Source of the DNA: Prochlorococcus sp. MIT 1300
GTDB taxonomy: Bacteria; Cyanobacteriota; Cyanobacteriia; PCC-6307; Cyanobiaceae
DNA: 64,000 bases
Assembly: GCF_034092375.1 (NCBI RefSeq)
Contig: NZ_CP139302.1
Coordinates: 1,612,001-1,676,000 of the forward strand
Direction: 5' to 3'
Part shown: positions 19,984 to 36,763 of the stretch, piece by piece
Numbering within the stretch: the stretch's first letter is position 1
Layout of the letters: each line of letters starts with the position of its first letter
Notes under the pieces: model-generated
Told to the model about the DNA's origin: nothing
Databases searched by the model: none
The model's input: the letters and a program-made list of their open reading frames with translations, nothing else
Position numbers and translations under genes: made by a program

Positions 19984-20028
19984 TTGCCCTATCACTTCAT
20001 TTTCTAAATCAACTACCTAATCAATTTG

Positions 20029-20994
20029 ATGTCTACCAATTTCATTAAAAGACTAAATCCTTTGAAAGCTTCATTGCTCTTAGGCGTTGCATTGACGAGC
20101 GTTGATGCTTCATTCTTACCTCGTATGGGGCATGCCCACGGGGGAGGAGGAACTGAGCCTTTAGAAGCAGGTGAATTTAGGTTGACGCCTCAAATAACCT
20201 TCGAAGCTCATGGTGGTTTTGAAAACAATATTGAAGGAAAACCAGAACATTATGGACTTGATGGACTCTTTGGAGGTTTGATGGAATGGGGGTTGAAGAA
20301 CGGTGGGAAATTCTCTATTGAAGGTGCTTTTGGACCTGTCGGTGTATGGGGTGAAGCAGAACATTTTTATGGTGCCGTACATTCTGATCATGACGATCAT
20401 GACGATCATGACGATCATGAAGAAGAGCATGCTGAGCACGACACTGATTACAAACGAGAAGATTTCCGTGGTTACTTAAAAGCTACATATGCTCCCAATG
20501 ATCGACTTAGTGTGGCAGTAGATACCAAGCCTTACATAGTTACAAAAAATCAGGGAGAAGAAAAGAAAGGAACCAAAAATTCAATTGGCGCAAAAGTACT
20601 ATATGCTTTGGGTGAAGGGGATGTTAATTTTGCACTCGGAGATAACTTTAAAGATCTCACTGATGGAGCTTATGTAAGTGTGGAGCACCGTCAAGGTTGG
20701 AATTCAGTTGGGGAATGGCAAGGCAATTACACAGACCCTAGAGTAGGAGTCGAATTTAATTACGATTTAATTGCTCTCAAAATAGAAGGTGGCCCTCGTT
20801 TCTTTGTCCCATCATCTGAGGCAAGTACAAGCGAACGTACAGATTTCGCTGGTGAAATAGAGATTGGTCGTCCTGTAGGAGAAAACTCATACGTATTTAT
20901 TCATTGGCAACCTACCCGTAGTGATAAGGATGGTTCTGACTGGGGAGAGGGCTGGCAACATCATGTTGGAACAGGAGTAACATTTACTTTCTGA
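20029..20994 (+). CDS. Outer-membrane beta-barrel with His/Asp-rich loop
   Basis: 321 aa from ATG 20029 (TTG 20026 is possible), with a signal peptide ending near GHAHGG. Alternating hydrophobic strands and a final aromatic Phe (VGTGVTFTF) mark an outer-membrane barrel. Residues about 120-145 repeat DHD/H (HSDHDDHDDHDDHEEEH), encoded by 9-base DNA repeats at 20387-20418, a likely zinc trap. It lies 45 bases after znuA and probably belongs to the zinc operon, so a zinc-uptake porin is the working guess. Unlike ZnuD it has no obvious TonB box. Confidence 0.75.
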   Translation: MSTNFIKRLNPLKASLLLGVALTSVDASFLPRMGHAHGGGGTEPLEAGEFRLTPQITFEAHGGFENNIEGKPEHYGLDGLFGGLMEWGLKNGGKFSIEGAFGPVGVWGEAEHFYGAVHSDHDDHDDHDDHEEEHAEHDTDYKREDFRGYLKATYAPNDRLSVAVDTKPYIVTKNQGEEKKGTKNSIGAKVLYALGEGDVNFALGDNFKDLTDGAYVSVEHRQGWNSVGEWQGNYTDPRVGVEFNYDLIALKIEGGPRFFVPSSEASTSERTDFAGEIEIGRPVGENSYVFIHWQPTRSDKDGSDWGEGWQHHVGTGVTFTF

Positions 20995-28099: not shown

Positions 28100-29284
28100 T
28101 TGAATAAATTGATATTGGTTGTTCAAAAAGTGGCAGAGAAGAAAGCAGCGGCAGACCGGAAGCTAGCGGCTGATAAGAAAGCCGCGGCAGATAAGAAGGC
28201 TGCGGCAGACCGGAAGCTAGCGGCTGAGAAGAAGGCTGCGACTGAGAAGAAGGCTGCGGCTGAGAAGAAGGCTGCGGCTGAGAAGAAGGCAGCGGCAGAT
28301 AAGAAGGCTGCGGCAGATAAGAAGGCAGCGGCAGATAAGAAGGCTGCGGCGGATAAGAAGGCTGCGGCAGATAAGAAGGCAGCGGCAGACCGGAAGCTAG
28401 CGGCTGAGAAGAAGGCTGCGACTGAGAAGAAGGCTGCGGCTGAGAAGAAGGCAGCGGCTGAGAAGAAGGCTGCGGCGGAGAAGAAGGCTGCGACTGAGAA
28501 GAAAGCAGCGGCGGAGAAGAAGGCTGCGGCGGAGAAGAAGGCTGCGACTGAGAAGAAAGCAGCGGCGGAGAAGAAGGCAGCGGCAGATAAGAAGGCTGCG
28601 GCAGATAAGAAGGCTGCGGCGGAGAAGAAAGCAGCGGCGGATAAGAAGGCTGCGACTGAGAAGAAAGCAGCGGCTGAGAAGAAGGCTGCGGCTGAGAAGA
28701 AGTCTGCGGCGGAGAAGAAAGCTGCGGCGGATAAGAAGGCTGCGACTGAGAAGAAAGCAGCGGCGGAGAAGAAGGCAGCGGCAGATAAGAAGGCTGCGGC
28801 AGATAAGAAAGCTGCGGCTGATCAGAAAGCAGCGGCGGAGAAGAAGGCAGTTGCAGACCGGAAGCTAGCGGCTGAGAAGAAAGCTGCGGCGGATAAGAAG
28901 GCTGCGACTGAGAAGAAAGCAGCGGCTGAGAAGAAGGCTGCGGCTGAGAAGAAGGCTGCGGCAGATAAGAAAGCTGCGGCTGATCAGAAAGCAGCGGCGG
29001 AGAAGAAGGCAGTTGCAGACCGGAAGCTAGCGGCTGAGAAGAAAGCAGTTGCAGACCGGAAGCTAGCGGCTGAGAAGAAAGCAGTGGGACAAAAAAATGT
29101 CAGAAGAAGTGCAGGCCAGTTAATGCAGAAGCCAAAAACAGTTTCTGAAAAGAAGAGAGAAGGAAGACAAGAGTTGTTAAAGGTTTCTGTTTATCTAGAT
29201 ACAGGCAAAATTTTAACTATTGCTTTGATGGGAGTGCTTGCTGCGATTTTATTGATCACGACCTCGGCTTTCCTCGTGAAGTAA
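28100..29284 (+). CDS. Lys/Ala-repeat protein with C-terminal membrane anchor
   Basis: 394 aa from TTG 28100. Residues about 12-330 are about 45 variants of a seven-residue unit (AAADKKA, AAAEKKA, ATEKKAA, RKLAAEK), a very basic continuous helix similar in composition to TolA domain II or histone H1 tails. The last 65 residues are different: a linker (KREGRQELLKVSVYLDT) and one membrane helix (KILTIALMGVLAAILLITTSAFLV) three residues from the end. Orientation by the positive-inside rule leaves the repeat in the cytoplasm, where it could bind DNA or RNA; TolA-type periplasmic orientation is the alternative. Function unknown. Neighbour 29391-29972 is another single-TM protein. Confidence 0.7.
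   Translation: MNKLILVVQKVAEKKAAADRKLAADKKAAADKKAAADRKLAAEKKAATEKKAAAEKKAAAEKKAAADKKAAADKKAAADKKAAADKKAAADKKAAADRKLAAEKKAATEKKAAAEKKAAAEKKAAAEKKAATEKKAAAEKKAAAEKKAATEKKAAAEKKAAADKKAAADKKAAAEKKAAADKKAATEKKAAAEKKAAAEKKSAAEKKAAADKKAATEKKAAAEKKAAADKKAAADKKAAADQKAAAEKKAVADRKLAAEKKAAADKKAATEKKAAAEKKAAAEKKAAADKKAAADQKAAAEKKAVADRKLAAEKKAVADRKLAAEKKAVGQKNVRRSAGQLMQKPKTVSEKKREGRQELLKVSVYLDTGKILTIALMGVLAAILLITTSAFLVK
28133..29080 (+). repeat. 21-bp direct repeat array coding the Lys/Ala units
   Basis: About 45 degenerate copies of a 21-base unit built from GCAGCGGCAGATAAGAAGG and related forms (GAGAAGAAGGCTGCG). Longer multi-unit blocks recur, such as the RKLAAEKKA-containing blocks at about 28210 and 28390 and a pair at about 28840 and 28990, showing growth by segmental duplication. 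Likely prone to length change. Confidence 0.9.
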
Positions 29285-29390
29285 TTCTATGGCGGTCCCT
29301 CGGGGAATAATTTTTCTTGGCTAACTATTCTGGATTCAATTTCAAGTTACCTTTTGGTGCTTGAATAGAAAGAGTTTGTAAGGTGATGCA

Positions 29391-29972
29391 GTGCCCAGCG
29401 AAAGGATCCAAGAGATTGTAGATTTTGCTACTACTGAATCCCCATACCGCTCTGCAAATAAAGGGTGGCTTACTAATGACATATTTATAGATTGGAGTTC
29501 AGACTCTGATTTGTCCACGAATACATCTCGATCTGCACAGATTGCTAAAGTATCTTTATTTTGGAAGCCAATAACTGATTTGCTTACAGGCATAGTATTG
29601 ATACTTTTTGTTAGTATAATTCTTGGCCTTGCTCCGTTATATATCATTCATGCAAAACACTTACCAATTATATCTTCTTCAAGCTTAAGCCCTGACGTCT
29701 CATCAACTCAAAAGGAAGTGGCGCCTGATGTTCTCTCAGAAGTGAGTGAAGTGAACGGCCCTGCCCCCATGTCGATTGACCAACAGAGTATCTCTAAAGA
29801 TGCCCAGATGGGTAGATCTCTTGCAAGCAATAAAATTAAGTCATCTCCAGAAAATAAGAAAATTGATATCAGGCCTATTAACAGAACCACCTCTGAAGTC
29901 TCTTCGCCGAAAGCTTCTTCAAGGAGAAAGGTGGTTACTGCAACTGACCTTTTTCAAACAAAACGGGGCTAG
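29391..29972 (+). CDS. Single-TM protein next to the Lys/Ala protein
   Basis: 193 aa from GTG 29391 (AAGGTGATG upstream). Cytoplasmic-looking N-terminal 65 residues, one membrane segment (LLTGIVLILFVSIILGLAPLYII, about 65-87), then a Ser/Pro-rich, low-complexity tail ending RRKVVTATDLFQTKRG. It follows the repeat gene by 106 bases on the same strand. Function unknown; joint action with the repeat protein is only suggested by location. Confidence 0.6.
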   Translation: MPSERIQEIVDFATTESPYRSANKGWLTNDIFIDWSSDSDLSTNTSRSAQIAKVSLFWKPITDLLTGIVLILFVSIILGLAPLYIIHAKHLPIISSSSLSPDVSSTQKEVAPDVLSEVSEVNGPAPMSIDQQSISKDAQMGRSLASNKIKSSPENKKIDIRPINRTTSEVSSPKASSRRKVVTATDLFQTKRG

Positions 29973-36154: not shown

Positions 36155-36763
36155 TTGATTACTTTCTTTTTTCTTCTTCTACTCCTCCTCGGGATCCCCT
36201 TGGCTGGTTCAGCTTGGGTATTGATGACTAATAAAGGTGAGAAGGCTAATGCAATTAAATTGCTCTTAGGCGAAATCTGGAAAAATTTAAAGGAGTTATT
36301 TGCAAATCTTGCCAAGTTATATCTAGCGGCCGAGGAGTTTATTAAGGAATTAACAGGTAACACTGAGGGAGGTAAATCTTTATCGAACTCAACTCCCATA
36401 GCAGAGCCAACTCCTGTAGCAGAGCCAACTCCTGTGGCAGAGCCAACTCCTGTGGCAGAGCCAACTCCTGTGGCAGAGCCAACTCCTGTGGCAGAGCCAA
36501 CTCCTGTAGCAGAGCCAACTCCTGTAGCAGAGCCAACTCCTGTAGCAGAGCCAACTCCTGTAGCAGAGCCAACTCCTGTAGCAGAGCCAACTCCTGTGGC
36601 AGAGCCAACTCCTGTGGCAGAGCCAACTCCTGTAGCAGAGCCAACTCCTGTGGCAGAGCCAACTCCTGTAGTCCAGCAGTTACAGGAAACAATTGGTCAA
36701 CAAGAAACTCCAGCTGACAATGCTCCTGATCGGTTAAGCCAAGATCTCAATCAACCTAATTAG
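36155..36763 (+). CDS. Membrane-anchored (AEPTPV) repeat protein
   Basis: 202 aa from TTG 36155. A hydrophobic N-terminus (ITFFFLLLLLLGIPLAGSAWVLM) anchors it, followed by an amphipathic helical part (KLLLGEIWKNLKELFANLAKLYLAAEEFI) and then 15 exact copies of AEPTPV. The Pro-rich stretch would be an extended spacer in the periplasm or cytoplasm, like TonB-type linkers; the last 30 residues are soluble. No TonB domain follows. Function unknown. Confidence 0.65.
   Translation: MITFFFLLLLLLGIPLAGSAWVLMTNKGEKANAIKLLLGEIWKNLKELFANLAKLYLAAEEFIKELTGNTEGGKSLSNSTPIAEPTPVAEPTPVAEPTPVAEPTPVAEPTPVAEPTPVAEPTPVAEPTPVAEPTPVAEPTPVAEPTPVAEPTPVAEPTPVAEPTPVAEPTPVVQQLQETIGQQETPADNAPDRLSQDLNQPN
36401..36670 (+). 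repeat. 18-bp tandem repeat, 15 copies
   Basis: GCAGAGCCAACTCCTGTA or ...GTG repeats 15 times with only a synonymous third-base change (GTA/GTG). Near identity of the units implies recent expansion or conversion. Confidence 0.95.

Follow-up and report, generated by a model that had tools for sequence, protein, structure and literature searches.

What might a Prochlorococcus cell do with a very basic repeat protein fixed to a membrane by its C-terminus, and how did such a protein come to be encoded next to a second membrane protein? The window analysed here, meaning the whole 64,000-bp stretch of DNA (G000:C1:1612001-1676000), belongs to a 1.855-Mb genome assembled as a single contig. It contains a long tail-anchored repeat gene (hereafter long) and, ~110 bp downstream, the gene of a single-span protein that we call TM2.

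The repeat array and its membrane anchor

A first-pass annotation of this DNA had described about 45 near-heptad units of very basic sequence in a gene opening at 28100 and ending in one membrane helix. TRF placed in the window an 18-nt period of 50.7 copies (score 995, 28132-29043), and the encoded Lys/Ala array is very basic and in frame with one C-terminal hydrophobic segment recovered by hydropathy, in agreement with that description. The unit, by contrast, measures 6 residues (consensus AAAEKK, with variants ADRKLA, ATEKKA and ADQKAA) rather than 7, as the self-identity of the array reaches 0.76 and 0.81 at lags of 6 and 12, compared to 0.41 at lag 7, thereby giving ~53 hexads (54 dibasic units counted) instead of 45 near-heptads. 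A heptad or coiled-coil reading of the array was rejected for this reason: the period of the long protein is 6/12, or 11 in one or two relatives, and not the 7 with hydrophobic a/d positions that a coiled coil displays. In 53 of 55 distinct homologues a GTG occupies the homologous start position, and the other two are fragments that open within an array or where a contig ends. The start was accordingly set to GTG 28130, and the TTG at 28100 was rejected. The G+C content of the array is 58% compared to 41% for the window, E or D is present in nearly every hexad, proline is essentially absent, and the 332-residue N-terminal part of the protein bears a net charge of ~ +54. The length of the array and its conservation in dozens of genomes exclude a chance origin. 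Coordinates of all features are collected in Table 1.

Table 1. Features of the long gene and of TM2, in window coordinates.
Feature	Position	Strand	Basis
Long tail-anchored cationic repeat protein, 384 aa	28130..29284	+	GTG start, translation
Array, ~53 hexads, consensus A-A-A-[ED]-K-K	28133..29086	+	TRF, autocorrelation, charge, AlphaFold2
Basic linker GQKNVRRSAGQLMQKPKTVS	29087..29146	+	Translation, low pLDDT
Tail-anchor domain, EKKR..R-ELLKVSVYLDTGK then TM helix	29147..29281	+	Alignment A1, 111 sequences, hydropathy
TM2, putative partner membrane protein, 193 aa	29391..29972	+	Alignment A2, synteny 58/59
TM2 conserved N-terminal segment ERIQEIVDFATTESPYRSANKGWLTNDIFIDW	29391..29546	+	Invariant E, DF, SPY, A, W columns
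TM2 transmembrane helix, related to tail-anchor domain	29580..29654	+	AlphaFold2, A1 profile
TM2 C-terminal motif RRKVVTATDLFQTKRG, behind disordered tail	29922..29969	+	Alignment A2, clade-specific C-termini

Elsewhere in the window, ~6 kb from the pair, a protein with a single, N-terminal TM (36155-36763, +) carries a TPVAEP hexad array of ~15.7 copies with 96% matches, and a GATCATGAC repeat (20386-20420) codes for a His/Asp-rich stretch in ORF 20026-20994, which adjoins zinc-ABC-transporter-like genes.

AlphaFold2 run on the single sequence of the long protein returned helices at residues 2-159 and 192-329 plus the TM helix, with a pLDDT of ~90 over most of the length of the array helices; the break between residues 159 and 192 is probably a modelling artefact. 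The hexad spacing distributes Lys around the whole circumference of the helix and leaves no coiled-coil stripe. From this model we infer that the array would form a helical rod in the cell, the length of which, if fully helical, would be 51 nm in the window and 25-60 nm across strains.

The C-terminal ~50 residues of the long protein, aligned as A1 and referred to as the anchor domain, hold its single TM (residues ~371-392 in the numbering of a 394-aa ORF), which lies within ~30 residues of the C-terminus, as in tail-anchored proteins, and is followed by a mean of 3 residues in 106 homologues. Among the distinct sequences of A1, one TM column is Gly in 110/111 and a small residue stands four positions further on in 111/111, a pattern resembling a helix-packing motif that could let anchor proteins associate. 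The domain is strongly constrained in the NATL-like group (pN/pS 0.06). Read from its GTG start, the long protein has no N-terminal hydrophobic segment, and in its homologues the 20 residues that precede the anchor TM include 2.5 K+R on average. The lack of an N-terminal signal, the C-terminal anchor and the basic residues preceding it point to a probably cytosolic rod, in line with the cytoplasmic placement proposed at first pass. Full-length Get3 was not found in this genome, P-loop fragments alone being matched.

TM2 and the conservation of the pair

The first-pass picture of TM2 holds: one TM helix is predicted and the tail is modelled as disordered. In the AlphaFold2 model (mean pLDDT 56), a helix spans residues 45-88 with a core pLDDT of ~94, and the TM helix alone is confident. 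TM2 of MIT 0701/9313-type genomes is 88 aa long, lacks the tail and is matched by the A1 profile at E ~1e-13, hence TM2, too, carries a domain related to the anchor, preceded by an N-terminal segment of its own. Flanking charge (1.88 vs 1.68 K+R) does not settle the orientation of TM2, which by TM homology should be that of its long paralogue; inserted in this way, it would expose its tail on the trans side, out of reach of the rod. TM2 defines a family of its own (alignment A2). Its pN/pS is 0.30 for the N-terminal part, which is constrained, and 0.79 for the tail, which is much less so. The extreme C-terminus is clade-specific, reading TAxDLFQxK in many lineages, KPKSNFI in the NATL-like group, and GLVLRF, NMLQPK or TAGNLF in others. 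The TAxDLFQ coding pattern occurs once in this genome, with no occurrence outside TM2. A resemblance of the DLF tail to sliding-clamp motifs was considered and dropped, since Gln is missing from position 1 and the tail probably lies on the trans side.

Profile searches of 400 genomes of the same family, read as Cyanobiaceae, found matches to A1 in 121 and to A2 in 95, the latter count including some weak matches to the shared anchor. Joint conservation of the repeat gene and its neighbour, proposed at first pass as a synteny check, was borne out: in the loci analysed, 58 of 59 distinct TM2 genes are immediately preceded, 13-129 bp away and in the same orientation, by an anchor domain, and the 59th begins 147 bp inside its locus. 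All named TM2 records (32/32) are from Prochlorococcus or a Prochlorococcaceae MAG, and in our searches the family was found in Prochlorococcus only. The strain names MIT 9313, SS120, NATL2A, MIT 9211 and MIT 9515 and the ecotype labels are presumptive and follow general knowledge, and the name MIT 0701 is given by its record. In 20 of the 32 named records, the contig ends within ~510 bp upstream of TM2, reflecting assemblers that stop in a long, nearly identical repeat. The array is present wherever the 5′ part of the long gene lay in the available sequence, and high-light-type genomes with a match show the short form only. In one such genome, which is MIT 9515-like, a protein with an N-terminal TM and Lys/Asp-rich repeats of the KKDIKD type (L167:5949-6323, +) is encoded close to the short anchor paralogue.

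No Pfam family (0 at E≤0.1) or NCBIfam family matched either protein, the sole NCBIfam match being a low-complexity one to ClfA far below cut-off, and PDB profile searches with both families (long/anchor and TM2) returned nothing significant. No TM2 relatives were found in the viral contigs of IMG/VR or the phage records of INPHARED, and a phage origin of TM2 was rejected on this ground. A search of open-licence papers turned up no account of either protein in Prochlorococcus.

Locus order and origin of the rod

Several relatives share the order rplM-rpsI-rpmE-prfA-(HNH, other strand)-alr-long-TM2-short (~50 aa)-beta-lactamase-like-NlpC/P60-glycosyltransferase-psaL. The HNH endonuclease kept between prfA and alr in several relatives (L056:3372-3923, -) has an IscB-like HNH match. 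This rplM-to-psaL arrangement with long, TM2 and short is the ancestral locus. The genome under study retains the short paralogue at an rplM-psaL-type locus (1484373), and its long and TM2 genes sit between AbrB-like and PetP-like genes. Because the pair is located elsewhere in most relatives, this neighbourhood is uninformative, and a functional link to AbrB or PetP was rejected.

The short protein consists of the anchor domain and has no array, so that, by sequence comparison, all three members of the ancestral cassette carry one tail-anchor domain. In a tree of this domain, the inner forks of which are unreliable because 44 columns are too few, the long form is one clade with a support of 100/100, and the short forms are joined by the MIT 0701/9313-type protein. 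Homology of the anchor shows a common origin of the whole cassette, which would derive from one ~50-aa tail-anchored membrane protein. Short proteins have the N-terminus VAEKKGNEL; the TM2-adjacent protein of an ETNP MAG opens with VAEKKGQEL, corresponding to one unit, that of MIT 9313/0701-type genomes opens with VAEKKSVAEKKGQEL or VAEKKAVAEKKGQEL, corresponding to two, and the longer arrays comprise ~25-66 units depending on the strain. Counts of 6-9 units in single-cell genomes may reflect collapsed assembly. The rod therefore seems to have grown by expansion from an N-terminal hexapeptide seed (VAEKK). The MIT 9313 lineage is basal in Prochlorococcus, which, together with the short paralogue, suggests that the short form is ancestral. 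With 1, 2 and ~50 copies of a hexapeptide beside a fixed anchor as reference, the rise of a long helical domain from a short seed is unusually readable. For a cationic repeat rod fixed to a membrane, the evolutionary origin is thereby clear, and Pfam, NCBIfam and PDB cover neither protein.

Long arrays maintain a net charge of +0.14 to +0.20 per residue, near +0.16, despite units as different as AAAEKK, AAAERKAAADKK, KAAEVRKAAEAK, QRKLEAEKKAAA and the 11-residue KAAEDRKAADR, a constancy that could partly be inherited through unit copying. Comparisons among the units of one array, indicative given the non-independence of the pairs, gave a pN/pS of 0.26 for the window and values of 0.07-0.56 for most of 19 arrays, the differences being largely silent; G079 and G300, whose arrays were recently homogenised and have few synonymous differences, gave ~1. 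Codon comparisons of the anchor domain and of the array units show selection acting on the protein.

Some genomes encode additional family members. G075 has a second, 882-aa one (L156:6920-9568, -) with no adjacent TM2, built on an 11-residue Glu/Lys/Arg/Ala unit and nearly neutral (+0.05 per residue), hence strong positive charge is not required in every member. Contig-end fragments of long-type paralogues without TM2 occur in G001 and G013.

Candidate functions and known systems

The reading that we favour, held tentatively and with somewhat less than even confidence, is that this Prochlorococcus-specific cassette provides a membrane-fixed cationic helical rod that acts as an electrostatic tether for polyanions, with TM2 as its partner. 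The long protein would be tail-anchored in the thylakoid or plasma membrane with the rod facing the cytosol. The rod, an almost continuous monomer-type α-helix with about one net positive charge per hexad, would hold polyanions at the membrane face electrostatically and without sequence specificity. Its most likely ligand, speculatively, would be RNA or ribosomes, or the nucleoid. TM2, which shares the ancestry of the anchor and is always adjacent, is presumed to be the membrane partner of the rod and may add a C-terminal docking peptide.

Alternatively, the rod may bridge membranes. The thylakoid membrane surface is anionic owing to its lipid charge, and low-light Prochlorococcus cells lack phycobilisomes; a rod reaching or lying on a neighbouring anionic thylakoid or the plasma membrane could set thylakoid spacing or appression in low-light cells. 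Charge all around the helix, a length that differs between strains as it might for a spacer, detection in Prochlorococcus only and the failure to see the long form in high-light genomes with a match would all fit such a role, yet low-light MIT 9313-type genomes carry 1-2 hexads only, and we regard it as unlikely. Equally unlikely in our estimation is the nucleoid tether proposed at first pass, a rod that binds DNA and fixes the chromosome at the membrane. A cationic, probably cytosolic and membrane-fixed rod is what this would call for, but searches of Pfam and NCBIfam detected no known DNA-binding domain, the acidic residue of each hexad sets the array apart from H1-type tails, and chromosome-segregation genes are not conserved beside the pair.

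The array may also lack a specific ligand, being a tolerated, slippage-prone expansion beside an anchor and TM2 in which the function resides. Copy number does change fast between strains (~25-66 units in the longer arrays), pN/pS approaches 1 in some nearly homogeneous arrays, and MIT 9313-type and high-light forms do without an array. We nevertheless consider this improbable: the genomes are streamlined and still have the array wherever the 5′ part of the long gene was in sequence, between-unit differences are mostly silent, and the charge ratio was kept while the units diverged.

The persistence of the pair deserves attention, as streamlined Prochlorococcus genomes have few dispensable genes, yet most sampled low-light lineages kept the rod and its putative partner. 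If it indeed tethers ribosomes, RNA or DNA, the cassette would represent a simple, lineage-specific organisation of the interior of a highly abundant photosynthetic cell.

Known proteins resemble the rod in part. The first-pass annotation had likened it to histone H1 and to TolA domain II. Histone-H1-like bacterial proteins are likewise Lys/Ala-rich, basic and repetitive, but the long protein has an acidic residue per unit, almost no proline and a membrane anchor; with no family-model match (Pfam at E≤0.1, NCBIfam), identity with histone H1, Hc1 or Hc2 was rejected and the likeness was abandoned. The resemblance to TolA is one of composition, both having a long Ala/Lys/Glu-rich α-helix joined to one TM helix, and does not extend to anchoring or topology, which are opposite. 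TolA consists of an N-terminal TM, a periplasmic domain II and a globular domain III (PMC12204202), such that its helix crosses the periplasm to domain III, whereas the long protein has a C-terminal anchor, no domain III and a rod that should be cytosolic. Identity with TolA was rejected, given the C-terminal anchor and the lack of a match to any TolA model in Pfam or NCBIfam. Single α-helix proteins share periodic K and E/D with Ala, the absence of a hydrophobic stripe and a predicted long helix, but the long protein is strongly net positive and has a membrane tail anchor.

In eukaryotes, p180 (RRBP1) serves as a receptor for ribosomes and mRNA at the ER. This membrane protein combines 54 basic decapeptide repeats with a lysine-rich region; in vitro, RNA binding was located in the latter, and three of the decapeptides, assayed as one peptide, did not bind RNA (PMC3362647). 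Its architecture indicates that a membrane-fixed basic repeat protein can anchor mRNA (PMC3362647). We considered, as a doubtful but specific version of the tether, a bacterial counterpart of p180 in which a ~50-aa anchor protein was duplicated and the seed-grown rod, with TM2, would capture ribosomes and mRNA or the nucleoid. Such a parallel would be by analogy only, with no sequence relationship: p180 has an N-terminal anchor, an extra coiled-coil domain and a different repeat, but likewise combines a single TM with a large, basic, tandem-repeat cytosolic part, in which the 54 decapeptides lie beside the lysine-rich RNA-binding region.
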